64,000 nucleotides of DNA. Source: an uncultured Dehalococcoidia bacterium. Lineage in GTDB: Bacteria; Chloroflexota; Dehalococcoidia; Lucifugimonadales; UBA1123. Below the pieces are notes generated by a model. It worked only from the letters and a program-made list of their open reading frames with translations. It made no database searches and was not told where the DNA came from. The stretch spans positions 2,067,800 to 2,131,799 of the forward strand of contig OY282441.1 in NCBI GenBank assembly GCA_958296105.1, in the 5' to 3' direction. Made by a program: the position numbers and the translations under genes. The stretch's first letter is position 1. Each line of letters opens with the position of its first letter. Of this stretch, positions 6,887 through 30,989 are shown piece after piece.

Positions 6887-8815
6887 TCACGCCTTGCCTT
6901 CGATCTGTCCGGTGACGCAGTGAGTGCGTACCGGACACTCGCCGCACGCAGGCGAACGTGCCTTGCAGACCAGCGCTCCAAGGTCGAGGAGCGCCTGATT
7001 CCATTGCGCATTCGCACCCTCCTCGCCAGCAAGCTCCCACAGATGAAGCCTCAGTCTCCACAGCGGCTGATCTGAGTCTGTTCCCAATACCCTGTGCGCA
7101 ATCCTGCGAGTGTTGGTATCCATCAGCACACTGTGGCGACCGAAGGCGAAACACTGCACCGCCGAGGCAATGTAGTTCCCCACACCGGGAATAGCCATCA
7201 ACTCTGGCCAGCTGTCCGGGACATTTCCGTCCAGGTTGCTTCGGATGTATTCAGCAGCGGAGGTCAGATTCGCTGAGCGCCAACGGAGTCCAAGCGTCGA
7301 TAAGTATGGTTCCAGTATCCTCGCATTGGCAAGGAACGAGTCCGGAGTAACGCCAGTATCTGTCAGCTTTCGAATCACGCGCGCCACCTGATCGGCCCTC
7401 GTCCTATGGAGACACATCTCCACAATCAGGAACTGCCAGGGGCTCAGGTTCGTTTCTCTCCACGGGAACTGTCGCCCGTGCGCATGGAACCATCCAATCA
7501 GGTCACTCCGGAAAGAAGATCCGTAAGCGGGGCGGCGCTCGCGTATCACCGTGGGAGTGGAACCACCTTTCAGCGCTCTGCGAACCTCAGTGGCTATGGC
7601 TGAAGCCAGCAGAGGCGGAACCGCGTTGCCGATCTGCTTGAACCGATTTGTCGGATGCCCCGCGAATCGGAACCCATCTGGAAATGTCTGGATTCGAGCG
7701 GCTTCACGGATCGACAGGGTACGATCCTCCCGTGGGTGTATGTACCAGTATCCGTCTTTCGCAATGTGAGCCGTGATAGTTCGTGAAACATCTTCGAATG
7801 ACAGGCGGACGTACTTGTCGTTGAATATGTCGGATCGGTATCTCCTCAGATGTTCAGGCACGTCTAAGTAGGTGTCCCCCGGCTTCATATGACCGTAGAT
7901 CACAGCGTCGTCCGTGCGCACCCCTCTGGTGATATGGTCTCGAATCAACCCGCGTTCCTCGCCCTGTAATCCCTTTCGCAGGGCCTTCGCAAGTGACGAA
8001 GTGGGCTGGCCTTCATAGCGCTGTGCCTCGTCCCTCGTGTCGGCGGGGATTGTGGGAAGATCGCCGATGGCCTGCCAGACCGTTGGACGCTCATCGGAAG
8101 ACTTGGGCCAGCTGAAATCTATTCCGTCGGCGACACCCACCACGAAAAGGCGTGATCGATGCTGCGGAACGCCGTAGCGCCATGCTTTCAGCTCTTCGAC
8201 GTGGACCCTATAGTCTCGCCTCTTCAACTCGTCCACAAGCGACACGAGCATCGCGCCTCCCTGAGCTCGGGCGAAGTCTGGAACATTCTCGAAGAGCATG
8301 GCGCGAGGAGTCAGACGGTCGAGGATGGCGAAGAAGCTCTGCCACAGGTCAGCTCTCTCGTCATACGCGGGTCTGCTCCCCGACTTTACCAAATGGCCGA
8401 TCTTGGCTGTGCCAGCCCTGGAAAACGGTTGGCACGGGGGGCCGCCGGCTAGGAGATCTATATTCTCGATTCCCCATCGGTCCAGTTGCTCGATGAATAC
8501 ATTCGGATCAGTCAGGTCCCCGACCCAGGTGAGACCGGGGATGTTAGCCGCATGGGTCTCCATTGCCACCGGGTCGGAGTCCGCCGCGGCAACTACAGAG
8601 AATCCGCCCTGTGCGAGTCCGAGGCTCAATCCCCCTGCCCCCGCAAACAGGTCAACAGCCCAGGGTCTGGGGAGACCATCCAGCCATCTCCGGATTGCAT
8701 CGGGGTCACCTTGGTCAGGAGATAGGGGATGGGCGTCAGGGGCCACCCGCGTACCTCGGCGAGTCGGAAGCCTGTATCCCTTTTTCAGATTACCTGGGGA
8801 GCCCAACGATCCCAA
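6887..8815 (-). CDS. Cytosine-5 DNA methyltransferase fused to HhH-GPD [4Fe-4S] DNA glycosylase (DrmMII-like)
   Basis: A 642-residue two-part protein. The N-terminal part (about 50-430) is a C5 methyltransferase: motif I DLFAGAGGLSLGL, catalytic GGPPCQPFS (Cys near residue 128), ENV, QHRSRLFVVG, and GNAVPPLLAS as motif X. The C-terminal part (about 445-642) is an EndoIII/MutY-family glycosylase: FPWR, helix-hairpin-helix IPGVGNYIASAV, the catalytic Asp in LMDTNTRR, and a C-X6-C-X2-C-X5-C iron-sulfur loop at the end. The EndoIII lyase lysine is replaced by Tyr, as in the T:G mismatch glycosylase Mig.MthI. I infer that it methylates self DNA and repairs its own deaminated 5-methylcytosines. It starts (TTG at 8815, or the TTG three codons later) 3 bases after drmB, fitting the methyltransferase slot of class 2 DISARM. 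Confidence 0.9.
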   Translation of the reverse strand: MGSLGSPGNLKKGYRLPTRRGTRVAPDAHPLSPDQGDPDAIRRWLDGLPRPWAVDLFAGAGGLSLGLAQGGFSVVAAADSDPVAMETHAANIPGLTWVGDLTDPNVFIEQLDRWGIENIDLLAGGPPCQPFSRAGTAKIGHLVKSGSRPAYDERADLWQSFFAILDRLTPRAMLFENVPDFARAQGGAMLVSLVDELKRRDYRVHVEELKAWRYGVPQHRSRLFVVGVADGIDFSWPKSSDERPTVWQAIGDLPTIPADTRDEAQRYEGQPTSSLAKALRKGLQGEERGLIRDHITRGVRTDDAVIYGHMKPGDTYLDVPEHLRRYRSDIFNDKYVRLSFEDVSRTITAHIAKDGYWYIHPREDRTLSIREAARIQTFPDGFRFAGHPTNRFKQIGNAVPPLLASAIATEVRRALKGGSTPTVIRERRPAYGSSFRSDLIGWFHAHGRQFPWRETNLSPWQFLIVEMCLHRTRADQVARVIRKLTDTGVTPDSFLANARILEPYLSTLGLRWRSANLTSAAEYIRSNLDGNVPDSWPELMAIPGVGNYIASAVQCFAFGRHSVLMDTNTRRIAHRVLGTDSDQPLWRLRLHLWELAGEEGANAQWNQALLDLGALVCKARSPACGECPVRTHCVTGQIEGKA

Positions 8816-8818
8816 CCT

Positions 8819-10684
8819 TCAAGCAGTGGTGACATTGATCGAAGCGTCGTCGAAGAATCCCACTTCAGGCATATCGGGGACACCTACCAGTAGCCCCCGG
8901 TCAAGAAGGCGATTTCCCGTCTCGCAGGAAGTCTCAGGTAACAGGACGCATCCGTGGCAAGCTGCGATGTTGGCGTTGTCAGTGCCCTGTCCAGAACTCT
9001 CGATGCAGACGGGGTCACTGGAGCACCACCGCGCCCGATGTATCGCCCGCTCGAAAACAGCTTTCAGGTGGTCAGGCTCACCCTGACGTACAAGTCCCCC
9101 GAGAGTTCCCTCGGAATCACCGGAAGCTGTGTATATCAGAACACCCTGCATCGGCCGGTCAGGATCTTCCATGTTGCAGTAGATGCGCTCCCTCAGCGCT
9201 GCGCTGCCGTAGCCACAGTCGAAGCTCAGCTGGCCAATCAGGGCGTGGGCGATTGTATGCAGCAGCACATATTTCTCAGTGACCATGGCCATTCCCATCC
9301 CACGTTCACTACGACGCTCGTTGTAGCGCTCGCTCAGCGACGAAATACGCTCTTTGACTTTGACGTGCGAATGCCACTTCTTGGTCCACGCTTCTAAGCT
9401 GCTGTAGTCGAACTCGATGAAGATACCCTCCCCATAAACGACCGTTGCGGGAAGCCAACCCAGATCCGCATTCTGAGACATGGGAAGCAAGTTCGGTGAA
9501 GACGGGTCTTCAATTGGAAGAAGCCTCGAGAAACCGACCAACACCCTCGTTTCGCGTAGTTTCCTCACCAAACCGATACTGCTCAGAACTCTCGCCAGCT
9601 TTGCCCCATATCCCGATGGATCTTGGAGTTCCACCATCAGGTCGGTAGTCTCACCACCTCGCCCACTCCTGAGAGCCTCGTACTCCTGCCTGCGGAACTC
9701 CTCCTCAGAACGAGGGTGGGTATCTGCGATTTCCCGGGTCCCGTCGAGCTTTCTCTGCGCAGCTTGGCGCAACTCTTCAGGATCGACGCGATGAATGGTG
9801 GCGAGTATCTCACACCTCACTGTTTGGATGTATTTCCCGTCATCCAGTTCTGCCGTGAGAGCGTTCCACGAACTCGTCTCATCGAGGATTTTGTTGATAG
9901 CACGTTCAGAGTCTTCTCCCCATAGGGGAAGGTAGATGGATGAAGCCGTCAGCGGAAAGTAAACGTTCGATGCTCCTCGCTGCACGACCCTCAGGTACTC
10001 TCCGCAATGTCCCGGCTTGCCCTCAATATCGCCAACCCATGGCATGTTCCCAGAGCAGTCGTGACCGATTCCATGGAGCGCTTCGGGGTTGAATGTACCA
10101 GTCATTGTTTCCGACTTCCCGCAGCAGCAATCTATCCGGATTCCCGATAGGCTCGCAGAAGATCGACCCGGCAATAGGCGCAGCCTGTGCTGACTGTCCC
10201 AATCAGACTCTCTGTGAACCCATCTCATGAACGGAAAGTCTTCGATGTGTCCTTTAGGACAAGCCGCGACGAATCGGCTGGGAATCATCCATGGACGTCT
10301 GTTCTCAGGCATTGAGTGGCAGTCCAGGTCCGAACGACACGGGCATCTGCGGCGAGGGCTGAAGAGGTGCAGCTCGTCCATTACTCCCCTCCTCGGGCAG
10401 TAGAGCCATCTGGGAAACCTCACAAAGGGAATGTGCTGATTCGCATGTTGGACTCCCTGCCCCTGTTCCCTGAAGTCTGGAGGAAGCCTGAAGTGGTTCA
10501 CCTTCAATCGTGCTTGGAGACGCTCCTCTTGGACGAGCCAATCATTCGGACACGGCTCATGGGCAAAAGGCCACTCATCGAGCCCGGCTGTCATCAGGGA
10601 CTCATCACCAGGGAAGTCGACGAGCGCGCCGACCCCGAATGGGCTGATCAGTTGGCCTCTCCTCATCGGTTTTTGGGCTGGCAT
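8819..10684 (-). CDS. drmB: DISARM DrmB-like protein (DUF1998)
   Basis: The ATG at 10684 begins MPAQKPMRRGQLISPFGVGA, which matches the start of DrmB proteins (SQLI-x-FGxG). This start avoids a long overlap with drmA. About 621 residues. The C-terminal DUF1998 region is clear: LLHTIAHALIGQLSFDCGYG, GVLIYTASGDSEGTLGGLV, and a Cys cluster ending AACHGCVLLPETSCE that probably binds zinc. In DISARM, DrmA and DrmB form the complex that senses and acts on incoming phage DNA. It lies 52 bases after drmA and 3 bases before the methyltransferase, so it is part of one operon. Family identification is strong; the precise biochemical step done by this protein is not settled by sequence. Confidence 0.85.
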   Translation of the reverse strand: MPAQKPMRRGQLISPFGVGALVDFPGDESLMTAGLDEWPFAHEPCPNDWLVQEERLQARLKVNHFRLPPDFREQGQGVQHANQHIPFVRFPRWLYCPRRGVMDELHLFSPRRRCPCRSDLDCHSMPENRRPWMIPSRFVAACPKGHIEDFPFMRWVHRESDWDSQHRLRLLPGRSSASLSGIRIDCCCGKSETMTGTFNPEALHGIGHDCSGNMPWVGDIEGKPGHCGEYLRVVQRGASNVYFPLTASSIYLPLWGEDSERAINKILDETSSWNALTAELDDGKYIQTVRCEILATIHRVDPEELRQAAQRKLDGTREIADTHPRSEEEFRRQEYEALRSGRGGETTDLMVELQDPSGYGAKLARVLSSIGLVRKLRETRVLVGFSRLLPIEDPSSPNLLPMSQNADLGWLPATVVYGEGIFIEFDYSSLEAWTKKWHSHVKVKERISSLSERYNERRSERGMGMAMVTEKYVLLHTIAHALIGQLSFDCGYGSAALRERIYCNMEDPDRPMQGVLIYTASGDSEGTLGGLVRQGEPDHLKAVFERAIHRARWCSSDPVCIESSGQGTDNANIAACHGCVLLPETSCETGNRLLDRGLLVGVPDMPEVGFFDDASINVTTA

Positions 10685-10736
10685 CGTACTTGCACATCTC
10701 CCATTGGTTGGGCTTGATAACAGGTTTTCAATCGAC

Positions 10737-13700
10737 CTACGTGTTGGCGTATCCGCTGACCAGAGGCCGTGCTGAACAGCTCGCGTCCACATTCCGCATC
10801 GAACTCGGCGTTGGGTATGGCGTTTCGGGCCAGTGGGGATGTTCCTGTCCACCGGCTGGATACATCATTGGCAATTCCTCAGTTGGCGGTCTGAAGTCGC
10901 CGTATTTTGATCTTGGCGCGTTCGACCACTTCCGCATGATCTCGTCCACGTGGGCCTCCGTCTTTGGCCACTCGTCGGGATCGACTGACATGACTCGTTC
11001 CCGGATTGTACGTTTGACCCGCTGTATGAGCTGAGCATCCGGAGGCTGATTGGGTCTGTCACGAAGGCTGGAACCGCCCCAGAACCGACATAGGATGACT
11101 ATGAGCGCGTGCAGCGCTCGTTCTCGAACCGGAACCGCAAATGGCGTTACACTGGTGGGCTCGACGTGCTGGTACAGGGTCTGGTGGTATGATCGGAAGT
11201 GTTCATAGTGTGACCGGTCCCTGGATCTGGAGGGATTGTAGTTCGTCACTACGATTCCGGGGCTCTCCACACGACGGCCAACCCTGCTGGACGCCTGTAT
11301 GTACTCTGAAGTTGTCTTTGGCTGCCCGATGATGGTCATTAGGCTCAGTCGAGGAATGTCGAGGCCGACCTGAATCATGTTGGTCGCAAAGCAGACATCA
11401 ATCGCCTCAGTTTTGGAAGGGCCACTGTATCGGGTGAACAGCTGCTGGAGGATTGGCGGGATGTTGTTACTCTGAACTCGACTGGTCAACTCTACATCCC
11501 TGTTGATGAACCTCCGCTGATCTGTCGCAGCTTTCCGCGTAGCCTCGAGGCGCAGGCCGAGCCTGTCCCACATGGCATTCAGATATTCTCGGATGTCTGC
11601 CCGAATAAGCGTCGCCGCGTGACCGAGTTCACGCAGGCTGTTGAAGTAACCCATCATGGTCCAGTAGGGATCGATCGAATCGGGCTTGGCGGCATTGAAT
11701 AGCTTGGGCGCCTGGAGCAGCGCTCCCATAGTCCGAATCTGCGAGGTCACATGTGAAGGCAGCGCGCTTGCGAACACGCCAACGTATCTCCGCCCTTCTT
11801 CGTCTTCGCGTTCCTTGGCAAAGAAAGAGTCCCCAGCCCTCAGAACTTGGGGAGGGAATAGAAAGGCAGATCTGCCGTAGAGCGCCTTCACTTGGCTGTC
11901 GGCCCTGGAAATGGTTGCGGTCGATGCGATCACCTTTGCGCGAACTCTTGATTCAGCCTGCTCGTTCGTACACAGTGCGTCAATCGCTGTTTCGTAGTGA
12001 CCAACCATAGAACCGAGGGGGCCAGAGATAAGGTGCAGCTCGTCTTGGACGATCAATTCCGGAGGAGGATACGCTGTGTCTATCCCAAAGATCCTTCTGG
12101 CTTCCGGTCGAAAGGCGAGCATGGCGAATTTGTCCACAGTGCCTATCAACAGGGTGGGAGGTGATGCGTAGATGTGATCATCTATGACAGCTACCGGCAA
12201 CCCCGCACCGGAGCTGAAATCGCAGTCTCGATCCTCGCAGATGTGTCTGACCCTTTGGGGACTGGCCAGAATGCGGTATCCCTTGACTCCCGTTCTCCGC
12301 CCCACCTTCTGCGGCCCCATTGCCGCGCCGCACCATGGGCAGCTGAGCAGGATGAATTTGTTGGTTCCCTCATTCCGTTGGAGCTGCCGTAGTGTGATGA
12401 TTGCATTCTGTTCGTTATTGGGCGTGACCTCCCCGCCCACCCACAATCCAATTGAGAATGGCTCTGAACCCAGTCTGGCATTCTCGCGGCGTCGGATAAC
12501 CTCACACGCGCAGATCAGAGACGCCGCGCGCTGAAACTGCTGTGTGGTCAGCAGCCTGAGTGTGTAGCGCATGAGAATGCTTGTTCCCGCATGGTCGGGA
12601 TTGCGCAGCCGTCGGAGAAACATGGTGAAGGCCGACAGCCCTAGATACGCCTCAGTCTTGCCTCCGCCGGTGGGAAACCATATCACATCCACGATCTCGC
12701 GTTCTTCGCAGTGAGGATCGGATAGCGCCCTGAGATTCATCAGGATGAATGCAAGTTGGAAGGGATACCATTTGCTTGTGGAATCATCATACGAGGGTCT
12801 CTGAAAGCTGGTATTCAACTCCAGCCGCCCCGATCTGTTCACCCAAGCGCGGGAGTTCTGCGATGCAATCTCATAGTGGATCTGCTGCATCAGCATGGCT
12901 TCGTTCATCAATCTGAAGGCCAGAGCCACTTCGGAGTTCTGCCCGATGAGTCCAATACCATCTCGCACGCGCCTGAGACACTTGCGGCAGTTGCCCAGAT
13001 GCCGATGCGCAGTCTTCGCTAGTTTCGGGGTCAGGTCCGACCGACCCGCAACCTCGCGCTCCTGTTCGTCGATCCATGCCTCATACGCATCTGCCAGCCT
13101 GCTGCATAGGCTCAGCACATCCTCGATACCGCCATGGGCAAGCATATTCATGCTCAGGTCGAGTCCCTCAAGCTCGGTGGGCAGTACAGGCTTGACTTCG
13201 TATGTTGGAAGCACTTCGGTCCGAACCAAGGCTGTACGTCCATCGGTTGGCTCATCCCACTCAGCAGCGCAGCCATGCCCGACTGCAAATGTCTGCCTGT
13301 GGAGGTGAAGAAGCTGAAGAGACAACTCCTCCTCGTCACCCGTGTTAGTGGGACGCTCTGGATAGCTGAGAAAGCATTCCCGTTCATCAGCATCAGAGAC
13401 GCCAAACCCGCACTGGAAGAAGCAGTCCGTATTGCGGGGCGCTCGGTTCTCAGACTGCAAACGGTTGACGAGAGTGAATGTTATGAGCCTGGCTCTGTCC
13501 GACCGATCAGATGGGCGACTGATTACATGAAGGGCGAGAGCGGTTTTGCCATCCACTTCTTCTACGACGGGCTTCTCCAATGACCTGTTCCTGTTCCCGA
13601 GCAGTTCCGATGCCTGGAACTCAATGGTTCGGTTGACCGGCTGTCGGAGCCAGGGTTTACGACCTGATCGGATATCGTCTGACTGCTGGGCATCTTCCTG

Positions 13701-14204
13701 CCTGTACATCGCGGCAGACACATCGACCCGCAGCTGGTCGGGGACTTCCACCAATATAGAGAGTCCCATCGCACTTGGCAGGTACTGGTTTGCAAGGTTG
13801 ACTTCCAGGTCCGTTTCAGGTGTGCTGTCGCTCCCTCCATATGAATCCGTGTCATTCGAGTTTTCCAGTATCCCTGCGGATTCAGGAGATTCGGCCTCGG
13901 CGTTGCCTCCCTCATCGGCGGCGGTCTCATCTTGGCTGGGAACCTGAGACCTCACCGGGAACAGAACGCCAGCGCCATACCGCTGCCTGGGCGGGTCCTG
14001 TGGTCGGAGTATCTCCTCTTCGTCGGGCTGCACATTGAGAGGAAGAGGCGATGGTCCCACGAGTTCCTTGCGCAGAAAATCCAAGATGAAATCACGTGCT
14101 GCAAGAGTTTCGTTCAATTCCGAAGCTCCTTTTAGGGCTAAGGCACGTCTCTCCGCTGAGCTCGACACAGCGTCGTCAATGCGCGTAGGTATCATCTTCG
14201 CCAT
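10737..14204 (-). CDS. drmA: DISARM DrmA-like helicase
   Basis: An 1155-residue SF2 helicase of the type that accompanies DUF1998 proteins. Walker A is FPTGGGKTEAYLGL (near residue 510), Walker B is VQDELHLI, motif III is ASTATI, and motif VI is QASSRVGRR. The N-terminal half (about 1-480) lacks recognisable catalytic motifs and contains an acidic, Ser/Asp-rich stretch near residues 95-130. A CPWC and a later cysteine pair around residue 650 may form a zinc site inserted between the helicase motifs. It starts 13 bases after the drmE-like stop and is followed by drmB, giving the DISARM core order drmA-drmB. The predicted role is DNA translocation or loading on invading DNA. Confidence 0.87.
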   Translation of the reverse strand: MAKMIPTRIDDAVSSSAERRALALKGASELNETLAARDFILDFLRKELVGPSPLPLNVQPDEEEILRPQDPPRQRYGAGVLFPVRSQVPSQDETAADEGGNAEAESPESAGILENSNDTDSYGGSDSTPETDLEVNLANQYLPSAMGLSILVEVPDQLRVDVSAAMYRQEDAQQSDDIRSGRKPWLRQPVNRTIEFQASELLGNRNRSLEKPVVEEVDGKTALALHVISRPSDRSDRARLITFTLVNRLQSENRAPRNTDCFFQCGFGVSDADERECFLSYPERPTNTGDEEELSLQLLHLHRQTFAVGHGCAAEWDEPTDGRTALVRTEVLPTYEVKPVLPTELEGLDLSMNMLAHGGIEDVLSLCSRLADAYEAWIDEQEREVAGRSDLTPKLAKTAHRHLGNCRKCLRRVRDGIGLIGQNSEVALAFRLMNEAMLMQQIHYEIASQNSRAWVNRSGRLELNTSFQRPSYDDSTSKWYPFQLAFILMNLRALSDPHCEEREIVDVIWFPTGGGKTEAYLGLSAFTMFLRRLRNPDHAGTSILMRYTLRLLTTQQFQRAASLICACEVIRRRENARLGSEPFSIGLWVGGEVTPNNEQNAIITLRQLQRNEGTNKFILLSCPWCGAAMGPQKVGRRTGVKGYRILASPQRVRHICEDRDCDFSSGAGLPVAVIDDHIYASPPTLLIGTVDKFAMLAFRPEARRIFGIDTAYPPPELIVQDELHLISGPLGSMVGHYETAIDALCTNEQAESRVRAKVIASTATISRADSQVKALYGRSAFLFPPQVLRAGDSFFAKEREDEEGRRYVGVFASALPSHVTSQIRTMGALLQAPKLFNAAKPDSIDPYWTMMGYFNSLRELGHAATLIRADIREYLNAMWDRLGLRLEATRKAATDQRRFINRDVELTSRVQSNNIPPILQQLFTRYSGPSKTEAIDVCFATNMIQVGLDIPRLSLMTIIGQPKTTSEYIQASSRVGRRVESPGIVVTNYNPSRSRDRSHYEHFRSYHQTLYQHVEPTSVTPFAVPVRERALHALIVILCRFWGGSSLRDRPNQPPDAQLIQRVKRTIRERVMSVDPDEWPKTEAHVDEIMRKWSNAPRSKYGDFRPPTEELPMMYPAGGQEHPHWPETPYPTPSSMRNVDASCSARPLVSGYANT

Positions 14205-14217
14205 AATTCATCACCCA

Positions 14218-16788
14218 TCAGAATACGGAGTCATCGCTCCCCAGCAGCCGATTGGTCTGGTCTGCTGGGTACTCTTGCTGATGTGTGTCCACGGACTCGA
14301 CTTGGACGATCCACGCCTGCCCGTATCCGAGGTCGAGCAGTATGGGCTGATCATCCAGTTGACCCAAGCGGCCACGTACCTCACCAAGGATAAGCTGGGT
14401 CAGACGACTCCCCGCCACTATGTGAGCCCCACGAATCCTGGAGATGGCTTCCCTGACAGTGTCCAATCCTGCAAGGAGTTCTGCGTCATTTGCAGCTCTG
14501 GCAATGGCTTCGATGTCACTGTCGTAGCCAGGTCCGATGCGGTCGGGGTTCCCCATCCAGCCTGCAATCGTTGGGAGTGTTCGGCACAGCCCATGCTTTT
14601 CCAAACGTCTTTGGACCGTAGCAGGAGCGCCGCCAAGACGACGGAGCGACGATTTCCACAGTTCAGCAATCGACCGTATTCTTCCGTATTCCTCAGTTCC
14701 GAGCTCGTCTTCCGCCAGCAAGCGAATGAATTCCTTGTCTCCGCCTGCTCTGAACAGTACGAAGTCGTCGTGCGATAGGTCGGAGGCTGCCACAGTTCGC
14801 AGTCGCCCGCTGGCTCCGGGTCTGCTGTCTATGAGTTCGTTCAGCACGTGCAGCTGAGACCACTCTGTGAGAAGAGCGTAGCGCCCTCCATAGAATTCAA
14901 CCAGCCGCGCCCGCCGGGTATCGTCTCCTATGCCTGCTGGAGATGGGCGCTTCGAGCGTCGCCGAGAGACCCTGTCCTCGAATTTGAGCATGGGCGGATC
15001 AGACGATGCTCCATCTGATGGCATATGTGGCTGCTGCATCTTCATCGCAGGGAGCAGACTGGATTCAACTCCAAGAATCGCGGCTCGTTCCTCCACCTCC
15101 ATTCGGTTGGACTCCGCATTAGAGCGTTCCCGGGTTTGGTGACTCAACAACCATCTGCGCTCGAAGGGATAAGCCAGAACCCGGATATCCTGCGTAACTG
15201 CTAAGTTCTTCAGGCGGGTGAATCGGCTGCCGTTGGGCCAAGCAGGTACGATAATGCCATCATACTCATCCTCTGGTGGGATCGACCGCACAGGAATGAC
15301 AGGCATGTCGGCTCCAAGATTACTCAGCCCATCCCGAAGCCACTCAGAAGTTCGAGGCGACCTTGCAGCCACAGCCCACCGTCCATCGGATTCAGTGAGC
15401 AGGGTCAGTAGGGCTTCGGACTTTTCCCCGTAGCTGCCCCCACTGGCCAGAGCGCTCTCTAACTGGTCGATTGTGTTCTGAAGTTGAGTGACGATATCGG
15501 GATCCAACCACCTTTGGTTCCGATCCAAGCTATCTTGAGCCTCTCGCAGGTTGAGTCTGGTCTCTTCTCCAACTCCAAGGCAACATTCGCTGATCTCCAA
15601 CAGGATGCCGTAGAGTCGTGCCAATATGTCATCGACCTCGGATCGTTCCTCGGTTCCGTTGATCGCGTTTGCCACTCCTTCCAAGGTTGACGCCACTGCC
15701 TCGAGTTCATGACTGTTGCAGTCAACGGCAGTTACTCTGCACTGTCCTCTCACGACTGACGCCCTAATCGTTCGTCCAACGAGGCTAGACCGAGAACGCT
15801 CGCTGGGTAGATCCTCTCCCATCAGAATCTCGCCTGCCGACATGTACCAGATCGGGCAATCTCGATCTCGCAGGAAACCGATCTCCTCGGTTTCGTCAGG
15901 TGACGCCAGTATCACGACTCTCTGACGCTCCGCAATATCGTCGAACGCCTGAAGGTCTCTGGCTATGCCGCGAGCCCCGTCAACGAGGACAATCTTGGAC
16001 TCCTCACGTGCAGATGCAGCTGTATTCGCCAGATCTTGAGGCACCCTCGTGACAGCTATCAGCGGCTCTCCAATCACCTGGTACGCATCACCCGCCATCA
16101 TCTCGCCCCCATGTCCGAGGGTTCCCCAGGACAGAAAGGCTGAGAGTGGGTCGAAGTGACTTGAATGAGCTGGCGCTAGGGAGACAGCGCCCGCGATCTT
16201 TGCGAAGCGCGCTTGTGCCATATACAGCAGTACGACATTCCGAATCATACTGATGTTCCCATATGTCGTGATGTCGAGTAGATCATCGAGACTGCTGCGG
16301 TCGAAGACACCCAGCTTGGAAGCGAGCGTTCCCTTTGGTCGTTTGCGGGTCGTGGGTTCGAGCCTCAGCACCTCGGACGTTAGAAAACTACGCCGATCCG
16401 TTTTGTCCAGTACCTTCAGCCTGAACTGACCGGGATGTTCGTCCCAGATGCCTTCATATTCGTAAACGAAGTCGCTCGGCTTTACCCTGACACGCTGTCC
16501 TTTGTCCAGCGCTGTCCGTGCGTAGCTCTCTGCAAGCTGAGGGAAATCTTCTTGGAGTCGTGCGAGCGCCAGAAGTACGGCTGCGACTGCGGTCGTACCC
16601 TGGGTCTTGTCCAGAACGAAGCAACACGCCCCCGGTTCACCATTCATGGCAGCGGCGAGCAGGAGGGCGAAGAACCATGGAATTCGCTCTTCTGGCGAAT
16701 CTTCACCGAACCGTCCGGCGACACGATCGAATATCGGAAACCGGCTGCGCAGCTCGTGGATCAGGTCCTGGCTGCTATTCCTGCTCAT
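14218..16788 (-). CDS. DrmE-like large protein of class 2 DISARM
   Basis: An 856-residue protein immediately upstream of drmA and nearly touching it. Length, position and the N-terminal layout (a CCFVLDKTQGTTAVAAVLLA segment, then a KPSDFVYEYEGIW segment) resemble DrmE, the class 2 DISARM component of unknown biochemical function. I see no Walker A, no HKD phospholipase motif and no PD-(D/E)XK motif, so it is not DrmC. The central region has acidic, leucine-rich stretches (about 370-460) that may be helical. The identification rests mainly on context and overall pattern, hence moderate confidence. The alternative is an unrelated accessory protein replacing DrmE. Confidence 0.6.
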   Translation of the reverse strand: MSRNSSQDLIHELRSRFPIFDRVAGRFGEDSPEERIPWFFALLLAAAMNGEPGACCFVLDKTQGTTAVAAVLLALARLQEDFPQLAESYARTALDKGQRVRVKPSDFVYEYEGIWDEHPGQFRLKVLDKTDRRSFLTSEVLRLEPTTRKRPKGTLASKLGVFDRSSLDDLLDITTYGNISMIRNVVLLYMAQARFAKIAGAVSLAPAHSSHFDPLSAFLSWGTLGHGGEMMAGDAYQVIGEPLIAVTRVPQDLANTAASAREESKIVLVDGARGIARDLQAFDDIAERQRVVILASPDETEEIGFLRDRDCPIWYMSAGEILMGEDLPSERSRSSLVGRTIRASVVRGQCRVTAVDCNSHELEAVASTLEGVANAINGTEERSEVDDILARLYGILLEISECCLGVGEETRLNLREAQDSLDRNQRWLDPDIVTQLQNTIDQLESALASGGSYGEKSEALLTLLTESDGRWAVAARSPRTSEWLRDGLSNLGADMPVIPVRSIPPEDEYDGIIVPAWPNGSRFTRLKNLAVTQDIRVLAYPFERRWLLSHQTRERSNAESNRMEVEERAAILGVESSLLPAMKMQQPHMPSDGASSDPPMLKFEDRVSRRRSKRPSPAGIGDDTRRARLVEFYGGRYALLTEWSQLHVLNELIDSRPGASGRLRTVAASDLSHDDFVLFRAGGDKEFIRLLAEDELGTEEYGRIRSIAELWKSSLRRLGGAPATVQRRLEKHGLCRTLPTIAGWMGNPDRIGPGYDSDIEAIARAANDAELLAGLDTVREAISRIRGAHIVAGSRLTQLILGEVRGRLGQLDDQPILLDLGYGQAWIVQVESVDTHQQEYPADQTNRLLGSDDSVF

Positions 16789-17161: not shown

Positions 17162-18871
17162 TCAGCGCCTCTGACGCGCCCGCCGCTTTCTCTTGGGGGA
17201 AGGGTATTTGCCTTCCCGCCAAGCGATGAATGCGCCTGGTTCTCCAAGCCGCCGGGCAGTTTTGGCATAACGGACTCCCTTCTGTTTATCAGTCAGCATA
17301 AAGGCGCAGTGCGCGGCGTGGAGATGAGCTGTTGCATAGTCCGGCCTGGCTTTAATCACCATCTCGAACTGTTCTAGGGCTTCGTCCAAAGCGGACAGCT
17401 CCATCAGGGCGTATCCGGTGGCAAATTGCAGATGTGGGGTTGGGCTGGGCAGGCGCTCGGCAGCCTGGGCGAGGTCTCGAATGGCTTCGTCAAATGCTCC
17501 AATGTTGGCCAGCATAATTCCTGGCTCGACAGCGGGAGTGTCCCAAGTGGGAAGGAGAGCGGAGGCTATGTGACATTCGATGATACCTTCGTCCACGAGG
17601 TCCCTGCGCCCCATGTGCTTGCCCACCATGCCAAGGAACGAACCCAATTCGTTGTGCGCCCTCGCGCTGTTCGGGAAGTCACGAACGATGGCGCGGCGTT
17701 GTGCAATACCATCATCGAGAATTCTAAAGAAGGCCGCCGGCCCCCCGCTCAGTACGGACAGGTAATTGATGTTGTCGATAGTTGACATAAGCCGGGAGAA
17801 GACCTCAGCGTCATCTGAATCAGATGAATCGACCGGAATGTCCTGTGCCAAGCCTGCGGATGATTTGGGCGATAGCGTCTGGCCACCCGCCCACTGGAAC
17901 GGAACACTCCAATCAACCGTCGCTGCGAGAATGTCCCTCTTCCATCCTGGGTCCTTTTCCAAGATGGCAAGGTTTCGCAGGAGATTATGACTCAGGAGAT
18001 AGGCTGTTCCCAGTCGCAGGGCGTCTATCTCCGCCCCGGCCGCCTCTTCGAGTGGCGGGCGGTCCATGCTGTTGACGTCTTCTGTCATCAGCCAGATGAA
18101 TCGAACGAGCGCCGCGCTCAGATCCATGACCTGCTCTCTGCCGATAAGATGAGCCACGAGGTCGGCGACGTGCGCGAAGGCAAACTGTCGACGAATGTTC
18201 TGCTCCAGCTGTTCCGGTCTCGATCCCGCAGTCCGTCCCGCAAGAACTTTGGCTATGACGGAGATGTTCTCGGGTGTGGGGCGATTGTTCCCATCTAGCC
18301 AATTGTCCACCGAGGTGGCGGAAACTCCCAAACGAGCGGCCAGTTGGTCGCGGGTAAGATTGGCCCCCCGCGTCAAAGCGCGGAGAAGTTTGCCCCCGCC
18401 GTTTTCCTGCGACCACAATGGCGTTTCAGGCTCACTTGGCTTTAGCCCAGCGAGCCGCATGAGAGCGAATGCCCTAACTGCCAGATCGACGACCACGATG
18501 CGAAGAAATCCCTCCACGGCCTTGCCTGAGTCGGTCGTTCTGCCGGAGCGACTCTGCATCGTGGAGACCAGTTGGTCCCATCGCTGGGCTGCGCGAGCGA
18601 CTGTCGCTGCGACTATGATGGGCATGGACACGTCCCGCTGTCGGAACAGGGGCGGCACAGGCACGATTCCCCTATCGACCAGAACCTCGCCAATCGCCAG
18701 GAGTATTTTAGTATGGCTGTGTTGGTTGACGGGCTGGCCTGCGAAGAAACGTCTGGCCGTTCTGTCATCCAGCACGTCATGATGGATGGCGAGCGCATCC
18801 ACGACGGCTCCGATGATCTGTCCACTGTAAACGGACAGCATGGGGACGGGCTTTACTTTGGAATCACTCAT
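17162..18871 (-). CDS. XRE-family HTH protein with C-terminal TPR repeats, coupled to viperin
   Basis: A 569-residue protein. A helix-turn-helix of the XRE/Cro type is visible near residues 172-205 (LTRDQLAARLGVSATSVDNW), so DNA binding is likely. The C-terminal third (about 395-545) contains tetratricopeptide-like repeats, including ALMELSALDEALEQFEMVIK, and the protein ends in a very basic tail (KRKRRARQRR). The first 160 residues are not recognised. Its start overlaps the last 8 bases of the viperin gene, so the two are translationally coupled. I infer either a regulator or sensor of the viperin/DISARM operon, or an effector. No enzymatic motif is visible. Confidence 0.8.
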   Translation of the reverse strand: MSDSKVKPVPMLSVYSGQIIGAVVDALAIHHDVLDDRTARRFFAGQPVNQHSHTKILLAIGEVLVDRGIVPVPPLFRQRDVSMPIIVAATVARAAQRWDQLVSTMQSRSGRTTDSGKAVEGFLRIVVVDLAVRAFALMRLAGLKPSEPETPLWSQENGGGKLLRALTRGANLTRDQLAARLGVSATSVDNWLDGNNRPTPENISVIAKVLAGRTAGSRPEQLEQNIRRQFAFAHVADLVAHLIGREQVMDLSAALVRFIWLMTEDVNSMDRPPLEEAAGAEIDALRLGTAYLLSHNLLRNLAILEKDPGWKRDILAATVDWSVPFQWAGGQTLSPKSSAGLAQDIPVDSSDSDDAEVFSRLMSTIDNINYLSVLSGGPAAFFRILDDGIAQRRAIVRDFPNSARAHNELGSFLGMVGKHMGRRDLVDEGIIECHIASALLPTWDTPAVEPGIMLANIGAFDEAIRDLAQAAERLPSPTPHLQFATGYALMELSALDEALEQFEMVIKARPDYATAHLHAAHCAFMLTDKQKGVRYAKTARRLGEPGAFIAWREGKYPSPKRKRRARQRR

Positions 18872-19787
18872 CGCTGGTCACCTCCATGAGCATGGTCTCC
18901 GCCGGGCTTGGCTGGTTGCTCCAATCATACAGACCGCCTCGCTGACGGAATAGATCGGGATCGACTGCAATGTCTTTCAGCGCTTCGGCTACTCCCACCT
19001 CGATGATTGGCCTGCTGTAATTGTGGCGTCCCTGCACATTATCGAAGAAGCGGCCGGCAGGGTCGACCATCACGTAGCTTCCACGCATCAGGTCGTTTTT
19101 CTCTGGAACCACCACTATTCCACGATCCTCCACCACCTTGTTTCGGCTCACATATGCTTCGAATTGGCGTTGGTCGATGGTGTGGCGACCAATGTCCGCG
19201 TCGTTCTGACCTGCCACGGAGAGCACCTGGAATATCTTCCACCGTTCGGGCTGGGCCACTGTGATGAATCCGCTAAGGTCATCCTCCCACGTGTCAGCCG
19301 TGACGACCGTGTTTATCTTCAGGCGGATGTCGCGCTGTCTGATCAACGCGATTATTCCCAGATAATCCTGTTCAGTCAGAGGACCTGAGGGAGTAGCCCG
19401 CCCCGTTCGAGCCAGTATCGCTTGGTCAACCGTGTCGATGCTGATGGCAGCCCAATCGAGATGCCCCTCGACTTCGTCCAGCCATTTATTGGTGATTCTC
19501 GTCCCGTTGGTGACGATGGCAGTGGTCATGCCCCGGCTCTTCGCTATGTGGATAAGCTCCGGCAGCCAGGGGCACAATGTGGGTTCGCCACCGGCAAATG
19601 TGATCTTGTCAAAGGACGCTTCCGACAAAAGCTCTACGACCTTCGCGCAATCCCCCTGCTTCATGTGGCCCTTGGGAAGGATCTGCTCCTTCACATCCAG
19701 AAAGCGAGCGAAACAGAACTTGCACCCCATGTTGCAGGGTTCCCAGAGATGGAAGTTCACTGACGGGATTTCCCTGGCGATACTCAT
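18864..19787 (-). CDS. Prokaryotic viperin (radical SAM ddhNTP synthase)
   Basis: The ATG at 19787 is preceded by a good GGGAGG site and gives 307 residues. The radical SAM cluster motif CNMGCKFC uses Cys18, Cys22 and Cys25; FAGGEP follows at 64-69. The rest tracks animal viperin closely: SVNFHLW just before the cluster, AISIDT, LKINTVV, RWKIFQVLSVAGQND, YVMVDPAGRF, then the C-terminal IEVGVAEAL and RQRGGLYDWS. Known viperins convert CTP, GTP or UTP to 3'-deoxy-3',4'-didehydro nucleotides, which stop viral RNA polymerases. It is first in the minus-strand defence set and overlaps the XRE/TPR gene. An upstream in-frame start at 19874 is possible but has no better ribosome site. Which nucleotide it uses cannot be read here. 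Confidence 0.9.
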   Translation of the reverse strand: MSIAREIPSVNFHLWEPCNMGCKFCFARFLDVKEQILPKGHMKQGDCAKVVELLSEASFDKITFAGGEPTLCPWLPELIHIAKSRGMTTAIVTNGTRITNKWLDEVEGHLDWAAISIDTVDQAILARTGRATPSGPLTEQDYLGIIALIRQRDIRLKINTVVTADTWEDDLSGFITVAQPERWKIFQVLSVAGQNDADIGRHTIDQRQFEAYVSRNKVVEDRGIVVVPEKNDLMRGSYVMVDPAGRFFDNVQGRHNYSRPIIEVGVAEALKDIAVDPDLFRQRGGLYDWSNQPSPAETMLMEVTSDE

Positions 19788-20134
19788 TTTTGCCTCCCAG
19801 CGACGCTTGATGTTCAGGAGCATCTCTCCCATACACAGTAAGTATAGGTCGGTGTGGGGGATTCTATGACCCAAGTATATTGGACAGTCCCCTTTGCACC
19901 TGCATCTTTGCGCGAGCCGTCATCCTGGACCGAGACAAGGAGACGATTCCGAGATAGCCCTTGATTGAATGCAAAGCCAAGCAGTCGAGTTGTTGGCTCG
20001 AAGCCGTGATGCCCGAGAACCCATCCCGGTGAGGTAAACTATGATCTCTTAGAGTTGCCAATCTACGCGAACCCTTGAACAATATCGACTGTTCACTGGG
20101 AGGCGCTAATGATGAACAATCTGTGAGGTCGACC
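19788..20134. promoter_or_regulatory. Divergent intergenic region between the two defence gene sets
   Basis: About 350 bases separate the viperin gene (minus) from the restriction subunit gene (plus), so promoters for both sets should lie here. I see TATACT-like -10 candidates for the minus strand (19841-19846 and 19874-19879) and a TATGAT candidate for the plus strand (20040-20045), but none has a convincing -35 at the right distance. No gene is supported in this stretch. Confidence 0.5.
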
Positions 20135-23100
20135 ATGGTGAACCGATTCTTCGAACAGCCGATCCTGAATTCACCCTACGAGTACCCAACGCGGTACTGG
20201 GAGCTCGACGCCGATGGTCAGCCAACGCAGCAGATAATCGCTGGACGGCGCGGCGCGGAGTTCGTAACGCCAATCCCGAAGCCCAGGAGGCGTCGGATAC
20301 CAAAGGGCCAGCAGCGGTTGGCGCTCGGCAGTGATACGCCCTCCTCCGAGGCCCAGCAGTACGATGTAACGGCATACGTGAACGAAGTCCGCAGGCACGT
20401 CGACCGCTGGAGGGAGATTCCCAACCCGAACGACTGGGGCGTGACCTCGGAGACTGCCCGGCTGCTCCAGCATTGGCGGAGCCACCGGTTCAGTGAAATT
20501 CGACCCTTCTTCTGCCAGGTGGAGGCGGTCGAGACTCTGATCTGGCTGACTGAAGTGGCGCCGAAATTCGGGCAGACCGGAAGACGGCTGCTCGACCACC
20601 TTGCCAGCGCCAGCAGAGAGGCTAACCCCGAACTGCTGCGCCGCGCGCTGAAACTGGCCACAGGCGCAGGCAAGACCACCGTCATGGCTATGATCATTGC
20701 GTGGCAGACCATCAACGCGGTGCGACACCCGGGCAGCAGCCATTTCACACGTGGCTTCCTCGTGGTCACGCCTGGCATCACGATCAAGGACCGCCTGCGC
20801 GTTCTCCTGCCCAACGACCCCGATAGCTACTACGCGAGTCGGGAGCTGGTCCCCGGCGACATGTTGGCAGATCTGGAACGGGCGAAGATCGTCATAACCA
20901 ACTACCACGCATTCATGCTGCGTGACCGGATGGCAGTGTCTCCAGGGGGACGTCGGCTGTTGCAGGGTCGCCGGGGCAACCCCGTAAATACACTGGAGAC
21001 CGAGGGGCAGATGATGCAGCGGGTCATACCCGACCTGATGGGTATGCGAAACATCCTCGTTCTGAATGACGAGGGTCACCACTGCTACCGGGAGAAGCAG
21101 GGCGATGATGACGACGAAGGCCGCGTCCCTGTCGAGGACAGGACCGAAGCAAAGAAGAATAGCGAGGCTGCGCGGGTATGGATATCCGGACTCGAGATGG
21201 TCAAGCGAAAGATAGGCATTAGACAGGTGATTGATCTGTCGGCGACGCCCTTCTTCCTCCGCGGCTCAGGCTATGCCGAGGGCACACTGTTCCCGTGGAC
21301 AGTGTGCGACTTCTCACTCATGGACGCCATCGAGTGCGGCATCGTCAAGCTGCCGCGCGTGCCTGTCGCCGACAACATCCCGGGCGGTGACATGCCGAAG
21401 TTCCGCGCATTGTGGGAGCATATCCGCACCCGTATGCCGAAGTCTGGTCGAGGCAAGTCGCGGAGCCTGGACCCTCTCGACATCCCTGTCGAGCTTCAGA
21501 CCGCGCTGGAAGCCCTTTACGGACACTACGAAAGGACTTTCCGGCAGTGGCAGCAGGCAGAGGTTCCGGCGCCGCCATGTTTTGTCGTGGTCTGTAACAA
21601 CACGTCCACCTCCAAGCTGGTGTATGACTACATCTCCGGCTTTGAACGGGAGCATGAGGACGGCTCGTCCACGCTCGAGAATGGAAGACTGGCGCTGTTT
21701 CGCAACTTCGACGAGTATGGCAACCGGTATCCTGTACCCCGGACACTGCTGATAGACAGTGAGCAGCTCGAATCCGGTGAGGCTCTGAACACGAATTTCC
21801 GCAAGATGGCTGCTGCCGAAATCGAGCGATTCCGAAGGGAGATAATCGAGCGCACCGGCGACCGCGCTCAGGCCGACAACATCAGTGACCCGGACCTGCT
21901 GAGGGAGGTTATGAACACCGTTGGCAAGCAGGGCAGGCTTGGAGGGAGCATCCGGTGCGTTGTATCAGTTTCCATGCTGACCGAGGGCTGGGATGCCAAC
22001 ACTGTGACCCACATTCTCGGTGTTCGGGCATTTGGAACTCAGCTGCTATGCGAACAGGTTATAGGACGCGCACTGCGACGCCAGTCCTATGATCTCAACG
22101 AGGACGGTCTGTTCGACACAGAGTATGCCGACGTGCTGGGAGTACCCTTCGACTTTACGGCCAGGCCGGTCGTCGTTCAGCCACTGCCGCCTCGCCGGAC
22201 AGTGCAGGTCAAGGCGGTGCGGCCAGAGCGCGACCGCCTCGAAATCCGCTTCCCACGGGTCTCGGGCTACCGTGTAGAGCTGCCGAAAGAGAAGCTTTCG
22301 GCGGAATTCACCGCCGATTCGGCGCTCGAGCTGACACCAGACCTGATTGGCCCAACGGTAACCAGAAACGAGGGCATCATTGGCGAAGGTATTGACCTCA
22401 GTCTGATACACACAAACGACCTCCGACGCTCGACTCTGTTGATGCACCTCACCAAGCGCCTCTTGGAAAAGAAATGGCGCGATCCCAACGAGGATACTCG
22501 ACTGCCCCTGTTCGGAAAAATGAAGAGAGTCGTCAGGCAGTGGCTCGATCAATGCCTCGTATGCGAGGGCGGAACCTATCCGGCGCAGCTCATGTATCAG
22601 GAGCTGGCTGACATGGCCTGTGAGCGGATTACGTCTGCCATCACCCGCGCGCACGTCGACGAGCGTCCAGTCAGGGCGATGCTCGATCCATTCAACCCCA
22701 CGAGATCGACGGCATACGTGAATTTCGCAACTTCCAGAGAGTCCCGCTGGGAGACCGACGCCCGCAGATGTCACATCAACTGGGTCATTCTGGACAGTGA
22801 CTGGGAAGCCGAATTCTGTCGTGTGGTCGAGGCGCACCCCAGAGTCTGCGCATACGTCAAGAACCATAATCTTGGGCTTGAGGTCCCATACAGGTATGGC
22901 TCGAACGCTCGAACCTACATCCCGGACTTCATCGTCCAAGTGGATGATGGCTGTGAAGCCCCGCTGAACATCATTGTAGAAATCAAGGGCTATCGTGGCG
23001 AGGACGCCAAAGAGAAGAAGGCGACGATGGAGACCTACTGGGTACCGGGCGTGAACAACCTTCGCGAGTACGGCAGGTGGGCATTCGTGGAATTCACGAA

Positions 23101-23152
23101 CGTGTATGCAATCGAGTCCGAGTTCGACAGTCTGATCGCGTCCTGTCAGTAG
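20135..23152 (+). CDS. Type III-like restriction enzyme Res subunit (helicase-nuclease)
   Basis: The ATG at 20135 starts MVNRFFEQPILNSPYEYPTR, a start typical of the Res family sometimes named BPTD_3080. About 1005 residues. SF2 helicase motifs are ATGAGKTTVMAMI (near residue 175), NDEGHHCY (near 311), DLSATPFF and QVIGRALRR. A PD-(D/E)XK nuclease lies at the C terminus: IPDFIVQV followed by IIVEIKGYRG (about residues 928-955). The predicted role is ATP-driven DNA translocation and cleavage of DNA lacking methylation by the partner Mod (24128-26950). Two small genes separate Res and Mod, an order seen in this subgroup rather than in classical EcoP1-type mod-res. Confidence 0.92.
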   Translation: MVNRFFEQPILNSPYEYPTRYWELDADGQPTQQIIAGRRGAEFVTPIPKPRRRRIPKGQQRLALGSDTPSSEAQQYDVTAYVNEVRRHVDRWREIPNPNDWGVTSETARLLQHWRSHRFSEIRPFFCQVEAVETLIWLTEVAPKFGQTGRRLLDHLASASREANPELLRRALKLATGAGKTTVMAMIIAWQTINAVRHPGSSHFTRGFLVVTPGITIKDRLRVLLPNDPDSYYASRELVPGDMLADLERAKIVITNYHAFMLRDRMAVSPGGRRLLQGRRGNPVNTLETEGQMMQRVIPDLMGMRNILVLNDEGHHCYREKQGDDDDEGRVPVEDRTEAKKNSEAARVWISGLEMVKRKIGIRQVIDLSATPFFLRGSGYAEGTLFPWTVCDFSLMDAIECGIVKLPRVPVADNIPGGDMPKFRALWEHIRTRMPKSGRGKSRSLDPLDIPVELQTALEALYGHYERTFRQWQQAEVPAPPCFVVVCNNTSTSKLVYDYISGFEREHEDGSSTLENGRLALFRNFDEYGNRYPVPRTLLIDSEQLESGEALNTNFRKMAAAEIERFRREIIERTGDRAQADNISDPDLLREVMNTVGKQGRLGGSIRCVVSVSMLTEGWDANTVTHILGVRAFGTQLLCEQVIGRALRRQSYDLNEDGLFDTEYADVLGVPFDFTARPVVVQPLPPRRTVQVKAVRPERDRLEIRFPRVSGYRVELPKEKLSAEFTADSALELTPDLIGPTVTRNEGIIGEGIDLSLIHTNDLRRSTLLMHLTKRLLEKKWRDPNEDTRLPLFGKMKRVVRQWLDQCLVCEGGTYPAQLMYQELADMACERITSAITRAHVDERPVRAMLDPFNPTRSTAYVNFATSRESRWETDARRCHINWVILDSDWEAEFCRVVEAHPRVCAYVKNHNLGLEVPYRYGSNARTYIPDFIVQVDDGCEAPLNIIVEIKGYRGEDAKEKKATMETYWVPGVNNLREYGRWAFVEFTNVYAIESEFDSLIASCQ

Positions 23153-23437
23153 AAGGCGAGCCGGGAAATGCCGACCGATTCGCTTAGCTGCTACATTGGG
23201 GTATTGGCTAGTAGCGAATGTGTGCCTGGCGCTCCACATGTCAGAAGACATCGACAGGAAGTTCGCAACAGGCTTGCTGGGGCAGTATAGACTACATGGC
23301 TGCTCTTGACATCCGCGCCCATTTGTTACAATGTACCTTTCGGGTCACTCGCCGTGTTGCACAGGTTGCCTGCCTGAGCGACTGGTGGGTGGTCAGGAGA
23401 TGGGAGAAGTCCATGGCGGACTCAGCGATTGAGATGG
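23153..23437. other. Gap between Res and the small gene pair
   Basis: About 285 bases without a supported gene. A short open frame from the ATG at 23414 (20 codons) overlaps the following gene and is probably meaningless. The stretch is somewhat less GC-rich than its neighbours. I see no clear promoter or hairpin. Confidence 0.5.
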
Positions 23438-23923
23438 ATGCGAAAGTCGAGTACCGAAGTGACCATCACATTTGAGAACCCACCGATCAGTGAAGTAGCG
23501 GTAGCCACCCACTTCAGAACTCCCATAGCCGAGTTCCGCAAGGAACCTGAGGAGCGCGCACGTGAAACACGCCATGAGTATATCCGCCGCATAAAGTTGC
23601 TTCGCGGATATGCTGAAGAAGACGGCATCCAGGTCAACCGAGCTTCGGAGATGGATTTCTGGTCGTTCGTCCGCAACTCAGCGCTGCACTCGAATAGGGC
23701 TAGGCTGGCGCTGCTGGATAACGGAAATCTACGCGCCGTATGGAAGGGCGAAGACTCGAGTCACGTCGGGATTCAGTTCCTAGGCAATCAGAAGGCGGAG
23801 TACGTGATCTTCAAGCGTCGGCCAGCTTCCGAGGACATTTCCAGAGTGGCTGGTATAGACACCCTGGGAGGGGTCCGAAAGCAGATTCACGCTTTCGCCC
23901 TCACATCGCTGGTGAATGTGTGA
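23438..23923 (+). CDS. Conserved small hypothetical protein of the RM locus
   Basis: About 161 residues from the ATG at 23438; a TTG at 23429 is also possible, and neither has a strong ribosome site. The start ITFENPPISEVAVATHF resembles the opening of TIGR04255-type proteins, but the rest does not follow that family. The C-terminal half (RLALLDNGNLRAVWKGE, then HVGIQFLG and AEYVIFKRR) looks like a compact beta-rich domain that I have an impression of seeing in conserved hypothetical proteins paired with a second small gene. The next gene overlaps it by 4 bases (GTGA). An antitoxin-like or accessory role in the RM module is possible; no catalytic motif is visible. Confidence 0.7.
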   Translation: MRKSSTEVTITFENPPISEVAVATHFRTPIAEFRKEPEERARETRHEYIRRIKLLRGYAEEDGIQVNRASEMDFWSFVRNSALHSNRARLALLDNGNLRAVWKGEDSSHVGIQFLGNQKAEYVIFKRRPASEDISRVAGIDTLGGVRKQIHAFALTSLVNV

Positions 23924-24123
23924 CGGCTGGCACTCTCCCAGACGACTCTAACGTAGTTCGCTATGCGAGTCCGAGGCATTATGAAGCCGACCCGTCACAC
24001 AGCGAAATCCAAGGGCTGCCATCTCCAGACTCTCCGCAGGCAGCGCTGATCGGAGATATGATCGCCGAGTGCGTCACTGAAGTTCACCCAGCGCTCACCG
24101 ATGTTCCGGCCAGAGAGGACTGA
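23920..24123 (+). CDS. Short coupled hypothetical protein
   Basis: A 67-residue frame starting at a GTG that overlaps the previous stop codon (GTGA), which is strong evidence of translational coupling. The product begins VTAGTLPDDSNVVRYASPRH and has no signal peptide or membrane segment. It stops four bases before the Mod ATG. It looks shorter than the partner proteins usually coupled to the preceding gene type, so it may be truncated. Function unknown. Confidence 0.6.
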   Translation: MTAGTLPDDSNVVRYASPRHYEADPSHSEIQGLPSPDSPQAALIGDMIAECVTEVHPALTDVPARED

Positions 24124-24127
24124 ACCA

Positions 24128-26950: not shown

Positions 26951-27013
26951 TAGCTTAAGTCGAACTCGGTCGTGTAACATCATGGTGGGCGGCGTTGCCG
27001 GCTTGGAGGTTGC

Positions 27014-29791: not shown

Positions 29792-29803
29792 GGTTCTCTT
29801 GAG

Positions 29804-30988: not shown

Positions 30989-30989
30989 A

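Follow-up and report, generated by a model that had tools for sequence, protein, structure and literature searches.

The analyzed window, a 64,000-nucleotide stretch of DNA from an uncultured Dehalococcoidia bacterium (phylum Chloroflexota), contains a gene in which a C5-cytosine methyltransferase (C5 MTase) is joined to a DNA glycosylase. Within a DISARM class-2-like operon for phage defence, the product is probably the methyltransferase used for self-marking, combined with a T:G (U:G) mismatch glycosylase that would repair deaminated 5-methylcytosine (5mC) at the sites methylated by the same protein. The pairing of a C5 methyltransferase with its deamination-repair enzyme is known; here it has a new architecture and is placed within a DISARM-like operon. 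No description of a C5 MTase-glycosylase fusion was found in the open literature searched, which likewise did not mention a glycosylase as a part of DISARM. The features distinguished in this region are as follows.

6887..8815, minus strand: drmMII-like fusion gene encoding a C5-cytosine methyltransferase and a Mig/MutY-type HhH-FeS DNA glycosylase (642 aa; the fusion is conserved)
7562..8668, minus strand: C5 methyltransferase domain, residues 50-418 (FAGAGG, PPCQ, FENV, QHRSRLF and GNAVPP, all found by direct reading)
7523..7561, minus strand: linker of 13 residues, 419-431 (low pLDDT at 419-429)
6896..7522, minus strand: glycosylase domain, residues 432-640 (E466, R471, A474, L510, Y548, D566, N568 and Q607)
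7112..7189, minus strand: HhH-GPD hairpin and catalytic-Asp loop, residues 543-568 (PGVGNYIASAV...LMDTN)
6917..6967, minus strand: 4Fe-4S cluster motif CKARSPACGECPVRTHC, residues 617-633 (C-X6-C-X2-C-X5-C)
8819..10852, minus strand: drmB, DrmB family NF038324 (471 bits, cut-off 240), located upstream of the fusion gene at a distance of 3 bp
10737..14204, minus strand: drmA helicase, NF038325 equivalog (981 bits, cut-off 950)
14218..16788, minus strand: drmE, DrmE family NF038316 (161 bits, cut-off 80)

The fusion gene is read from a TTG start at 8815 to 6887 as a single frame of 642 codons with no internal stop. The first-pass annotation had described a complete C5 MTase and a glycosylase in one frame at exactly these coordinates; the gene lies on the minus strand. 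GC3 equals 0.65 in both domains alike. The N-terminal half was assigned to the C5 MTases on the basis of motifs I, IV (PCQ), VI (ENV), VIII (QxRxR) and X (GNAVPP), which occur in this order; Pfam DNA_methylase (PF00145) spans residues 54-411 (188 bits) and the PADLOC DrmMII model matches the same half with 270 bits. The hairpin, the catalytic Asp and the four-cysteine cluster place the C-terminal half in the HhH-GPD/EndoIII superfamily, and the Pfam EndIII_4Fe-2S match coincides with residues 617-633. Among the NCBIfam models, dcm matches one half of the protein, and mutY and nth the other. The protein stops just past the FeS cluster, and the C-terminal domain with which MutY reads 8-oxoG is absent. 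A phmmer search of the PDB with the glycosylase half retrieved MutY and Mig.MthI (1kea), with E about 1e-23. The AlphaFold model of the full-length fusion (25 aligned sequences) has a pLDDT of 82.5 and a pTM of 0.82, with a weak linker at 419-429, while the glycosylase domain alone reaches a pLDDT of 96.1. The structural comparison to Mig.MthI and MutY proposed earlier gave both proteins as the top PDB matches of the glycosylase model (TM about 0.84-0.87).

Seven further Chloroflexota loci (L057, L062, L056, L058, L059, L060 and L061) carry the same fusion, which therefore was not made by sequencing; a frameshift or assembly artefact is ruled out. In six of them the fusion frame is unbroken over 639-644 codons, which answers the first-pass concern that the two halves might be separated by a frameshift. 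The copy in G165 (L044, identical with L057) matches the window fusion at 74% across its full length, and that in G319 (L045, identical with L062) at 64%. The nearest relative, L056:6600-10705, is a decayed copy in a decaying DISARM locus: drmB carries a frameshift and residues 1-272 of the MTase are gone, while the glycosylase domain retains about 80% identity. Both domains of the fusion are under purifying selection: in the two closest pairs, NG86 dN/dS lies at about 0.08-0.13 over the MTase domain and at 0.17-0.18 over the glycosylase domain. Conservation and selection together rule out a chance fusion. In a thinned, carefully computed tree the fused glycosylases form a single clade with 100/100 support.

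The fusion gene belongs to a gene cluster with the order drmE-drmA-drmB-MTase on one strand, in which drmA, drmB and drmE all exceed the NCBI curated cut-offs. Together with the C5 methyltransferase they make up the gene set of DISARM class 2, and the fusion protein is the predicted DrmMII of this operon. The locus differs from DISARM class 2 in that its DrmMII bears a glycosylase and in that drmC was not detected. As a scan of the neighbouring ORFs detected no drmC (PLD nuclease), we use the label “class-2-like”; DrmC is seemingly dispensable for DISARM activity (PMC9142583). Neither this operon context nor the split form of the pairing in many phyla (see below) was part of the first-pass annotation.

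The surroundings of the operon form a defence island. Directly upstream lies a prokaryotic viperin gene (18864-19874, minus strand; PADLOC pVip-kinase model, E 8e-107), adjoined by a gene for an HTH+TPR protein at 17162-18871. The remainder of the island (20075-33062, plus strand) encodes type III restriction Res and Mod subunits, a Ppl-like ATPase and a UvrD-type helicase, and the protein encoded at 29804-30988 shows a weak match to pAgo models.

The substrate of the glycosylase was considered on the basis of an alignment in which the catalytic Glu E466, the lyase-position Tyr Y548, Asp D566 and the four Cys are all present; none of the catalytic or cluster residues read by the first-pass annotation is lost. 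In E. coli MutY numbering, E466 corresponds to E37, R471 to 42, A474 to 45, L510 to 82, Y548 to 120, D566 to D138, N568 to N140 and Q607 to Q182. The annotation had taken the lyase-position Tyr as a sign of likeness to Mig.MthI. The residue is there, but as an argument for Mig-likeness it was dropped, since most MutY proteins carry Tyr at this position (all 32 rows without an MTase, mostly MutY, and Geobacillus MutY). The residues that do separate the two groups are R471, A474 and L510, which are the same as in Mig.MthI, whereas MutY has Q42, V45 and Y82; in MTase-linked glycosylases these positions are occupied by R in 54/57, A in 50/57 and L in 51/57 sequences.

Mig and MutY have six of seven adenine-pocket residues in common (PMC2714593). 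The double substitution A50V+L187Q switched the activity of Mig from T/G to A/G, while V45A and Q182L made MutY weaker on A/G (PMC2714593). At the first of these two positions (Mig 50, MutY V45) the window protein has the Mig-type residue, A474, and Ala is shared by 7/8 fused proteins as well as by the 50 MTase-linked sequences mentioned above. At the second (Mig 187, MutY Q182) it has the MutY-type Q607, and Gln is found in 8/8 fused proteins; the position is occupied by Leu in Mig and mostly by Tyr, Leu or Phe in other MTase-linked glycosylases. This mixed pair is the main molecular reservation about the predicted specificity. The likeness to Mig.MthI claimed at first holds for R471, A474 and L510 and fails at one of the two specificity positions, and the enzyme would work like Mig but is not filed as Mig, because Q607 replaces Leu187.

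Relatives of the glycosylase were sought with its alignment in 84,980 species genomes, which yielded 80 loci; all ORFs were screened with our own profiles of C5 MTase, glycosylase, DrmA, DrmB and DrmE. Short glycosylases (about 205-260 aa, lacking the MutY C-terminal domain) almost always have a C5 MTase alongside. Their genes often overlap the C5 MTase gene by a few bases, and in one subgroup at least one gene intervenes. Long glycosylases (mostly 290-420 aa) group with the MutY proteins of E. coli and Geobacillus and are never found beside a C5 MTase. In a quick tree of 104 rows, a C5 MTase was fused, adjacent or within 8 kb in 59/63 rows of the nearest glycosylases versus 0/28 MutY rows; three of the four exceptions begin at a contig end. 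The split pairing of glycosylase and C5 MTase occurs across many phyla. In Chloroflexota, Chthonomonas, Ferroplasma, another Thermoplasmatota archaeon and Halomarina, drmA and drmB are encoded along with the pair. Mig.MthI and the window protein also have in common their association with a C5 methyltransferase, fused in the window and adjacent in relatives.

The descent of the fused glycosylases is less clear. The quick tree seemed to separate Mig from MutY, yet approximately unbiased (AU) tests on its trimmed version favoured every constrained tree, so the search behind it was unfinished and we discarded it as proof. In the thinned careful tree the MTase-linked group including the fused proteins has support of just 82/62. 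AU tests failed to reject either a tree joining Mig with the MTase-linked group (p 0.54) or one joining MutY with the fused proteins (p 0.42). The functional argument for the fusion leans on genomic context and residues; the trees are compatible with descent from either Mig or MutY.

An unlikely alternative, and the best surviving one, is that the C-terminal half is a MutY, i.e. an adenine glycosylase acting on A:G or A:8-oxoG, which was fused by chance and substitutes for the missing mutY of this genome. Such an origin would agree with Q607, with the AU result for the fused+MutY grouping and with the window's genome (96.9% complete), which contains no mutY above the cut-off. The best NCBIfam match of the glycosylase half is indeed mutY, though with 126 bits versus a cut-off of 286.5. 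The MutY hallmarks Q42, V45 and Y82 are replaced by R, A and L, the 8-oxoG domain is missing, and the MutY rows form a clade that excludes the fused proteins with 98/98 support. Moreover, the whole glycosylase group is associated with C5 MTases, and the fusion-bearing G165 has an additional frame of 310 codons, MutY-sized, that matches the glycosylase half.

Whether the glycosylase follows DISARM or the type of methylation was examined by searching for DrmB in 400 genomes of the phylum and by fetching and scoring the surroundings, with too-short contigs excluded. Eleven DISARM loci contained a C5 MTase. A Mig-like glycosylase accompanies the C5 MTase in six of these, being fused to it in two and encoded next to it in four. 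In L177 the partner is an Nth-type glycosylase joined to the N-terminal end of the MTase, and L174 and L167 have a vsr gene; no deamination-repair partner was detected in the remaining two, L175 and L176. Thirty-one DISARM loci had no C5 MTase, many of them encoding an N6-adenine-type NPPF enzyme. Mig-like glycosylases were therefore present in 6/11 versus 0/31 loci (Fisher p = 9e-5), and any repair partner (Mig-like, Nth-type or Vsr) in 9/11 versus 2/31 (Fisher p = 6e-6); both p-values ignore relatedness and are optimistic, because the sampled loci are related by descent. The two exceptions are a vsr gene in L142 and an Nth-type gene 3.4 kb off in L148. The former (L142:7597-8064) lies inside a DISARM locus without a detectable C5 MTase, adjoining an HATPase gene, and is perhaps a remnant of a lost C5 system. 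The latter is on the opposite strand and looks like a housekeeping gene, but was still counted against the hypothesis.

The association also extends beyond DISARM. At L060 the fusion adjoins MzaB-MzaC-MzaD-MzaE, and at L045 it lies next to an HATPase/REase_II-like gene that is accompanied by a response-regulator gene. A split glycosylase/MTase pair on a plasmid (L042) is accompanied by genes for an MvaI/BcnI endonuclease and a DruE-type protein; our drmA profile had suggested DISARM for this locus, an assignment that was dropped as PADLOC gives DruE. At L177:6874-8931, L188:1792-3636 and L189:9386-11341 a C5 MTase carries at its N-terminal end an Nth-type glycosylase with Lys at the lyase position. 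This fusion of opposite order occurs in three Chloroflexota genera, beside drmA in two cases, and is an independent, convergent joining of a glycosylase to a C5 MTase. Both other C5 MTases of the window's genome have vsr as a neighbour, one at 3 bp and the other at about 600 bp. The glycosylase is thus a dedicated partner of C5 (not N6-adenine) methylation across unrelated defence systems, rather than of DISARM. Since the occurrence of this partner goes with the type of methylation rather than with the effector, and since vsr replaces it elsewhere, it is best read as a deamination-repair enzyme.

The same distribution makes it very improbable that the fusion is an effector, a base-excision restriction enzyme in the manner of R.PabI, which the MTase recognition domain would aim at invading unmethylated or base-modified DNA. 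The gene does lie within a defence operon and restriction glycosylases are known (PMC10273834), and if this were true DISARM would gain a nuclease-free means of damaging invaders. However, the fold of R.PabI is unrelated, the glycosylase keeps company with the C5 MTase at DISARM, Mza, type II-like and Druantia-like loci but does not occur in DISARM loci without a C5 MTase, and its substitution by vsr at other loci fits repair of the mark and not attack. Least probable is a catalytically idle domain serving the methyltransferase as an extra DNA-binding module, for which some diverged fused copies described below could be cited, but against which stand the selection acting on the glycosylase domain and, in the clade of the window protein, the invariant E, D and N and a lyase-position Tyr in 7/8 members.

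Degenerate or diverged glycosylase domains fused to a C5 MTase were observed at L074:7973-10699, L040:3895-5820 and L038:4833-6851. Those of L038 and L040 have kept the cluster cysteines and lost catalytic residues, hence the glycosylase fold can persist without catalysis. In L074 (Stenomitos) the diverged fused domain is followed at once by a separate, intact glycosylase gene.

According to the favoured reading, i.e. mismatch repair by the methyltransferase's own glycosylase, the N-terminal domain would methylate cytosine within a sequence motif and so protect host DNA from DrmAB. Where 5mC at a marked site has turned into thymine by deamination, the C-terminal domain would flip out and excise T (and U) opposite G. 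As Tyr replaces Lys, no lyase step is predicted, and the AP site would be left to AP endonuclease, polymerase and ligase of the host. Owing to the tether between both domains, the target-recognition domain of the MTase probably holds the glycosylase close to its own motif, as Vsr for Dcm and Mig.MthI for M.MthI. The first-pass annotation had proposed such a one-polypeptide version of Dcm with Vsr, or M.MthI with Mig.MthI; the idea remains the best-supported explanation, now with stronger evidence from context, minus the diagnostic Tyr and with Gln at Q607 as a reservation.

The known systems nearest to the fusion can be compared directly. Mig.MthI (PDB 1kea), a T:G/U:G glycosylase and the partner of M.MthI, shares with it the HhH and 4Fe-4S fold (TM 0.85), the lyase-position Tyr, the catalytic Asp and R/A/L at MutY Q42/V45/Y82. 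The Mig.MthI gene is separate and plasmid-borne, whereas the window glycosylase is in one chain with the MTase, belongs to a DISARM-like operon and has Gln for Leu187. Dcm and Vsr likewise combine a C5 MTase with a dedicated enzyme for the T:G deamination product, but Vsr is a separate nicking endonuclease of another fold. With MutY the fusion has in common the fold, the cluster, Asp, Tyr (in most MutY) and Gln at 182; it differs in lacking the 8-oxoG domain, in R/A/L for Q42/V45/Y82 and in the pairing with a C5 MTase.

Self-marking with 5mC carries a mutation cost at each marked site. The analyzed locus points to a dedicated answer to this cost in defence systems, C5-type DISARM among them, a role filled by three solutions – a Mig-like glycosylase, an Nth-type fusion and Vsr – and twice by fusion to the MTase itself. 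If confirmed, the finding would add to DISARM a repair component not listed in the descriptions covered, and a single enzyme would both write the mark and mend its decay product. Whether repair tethered to the writer suppresses methylation-induced mutation would then become directly testable.
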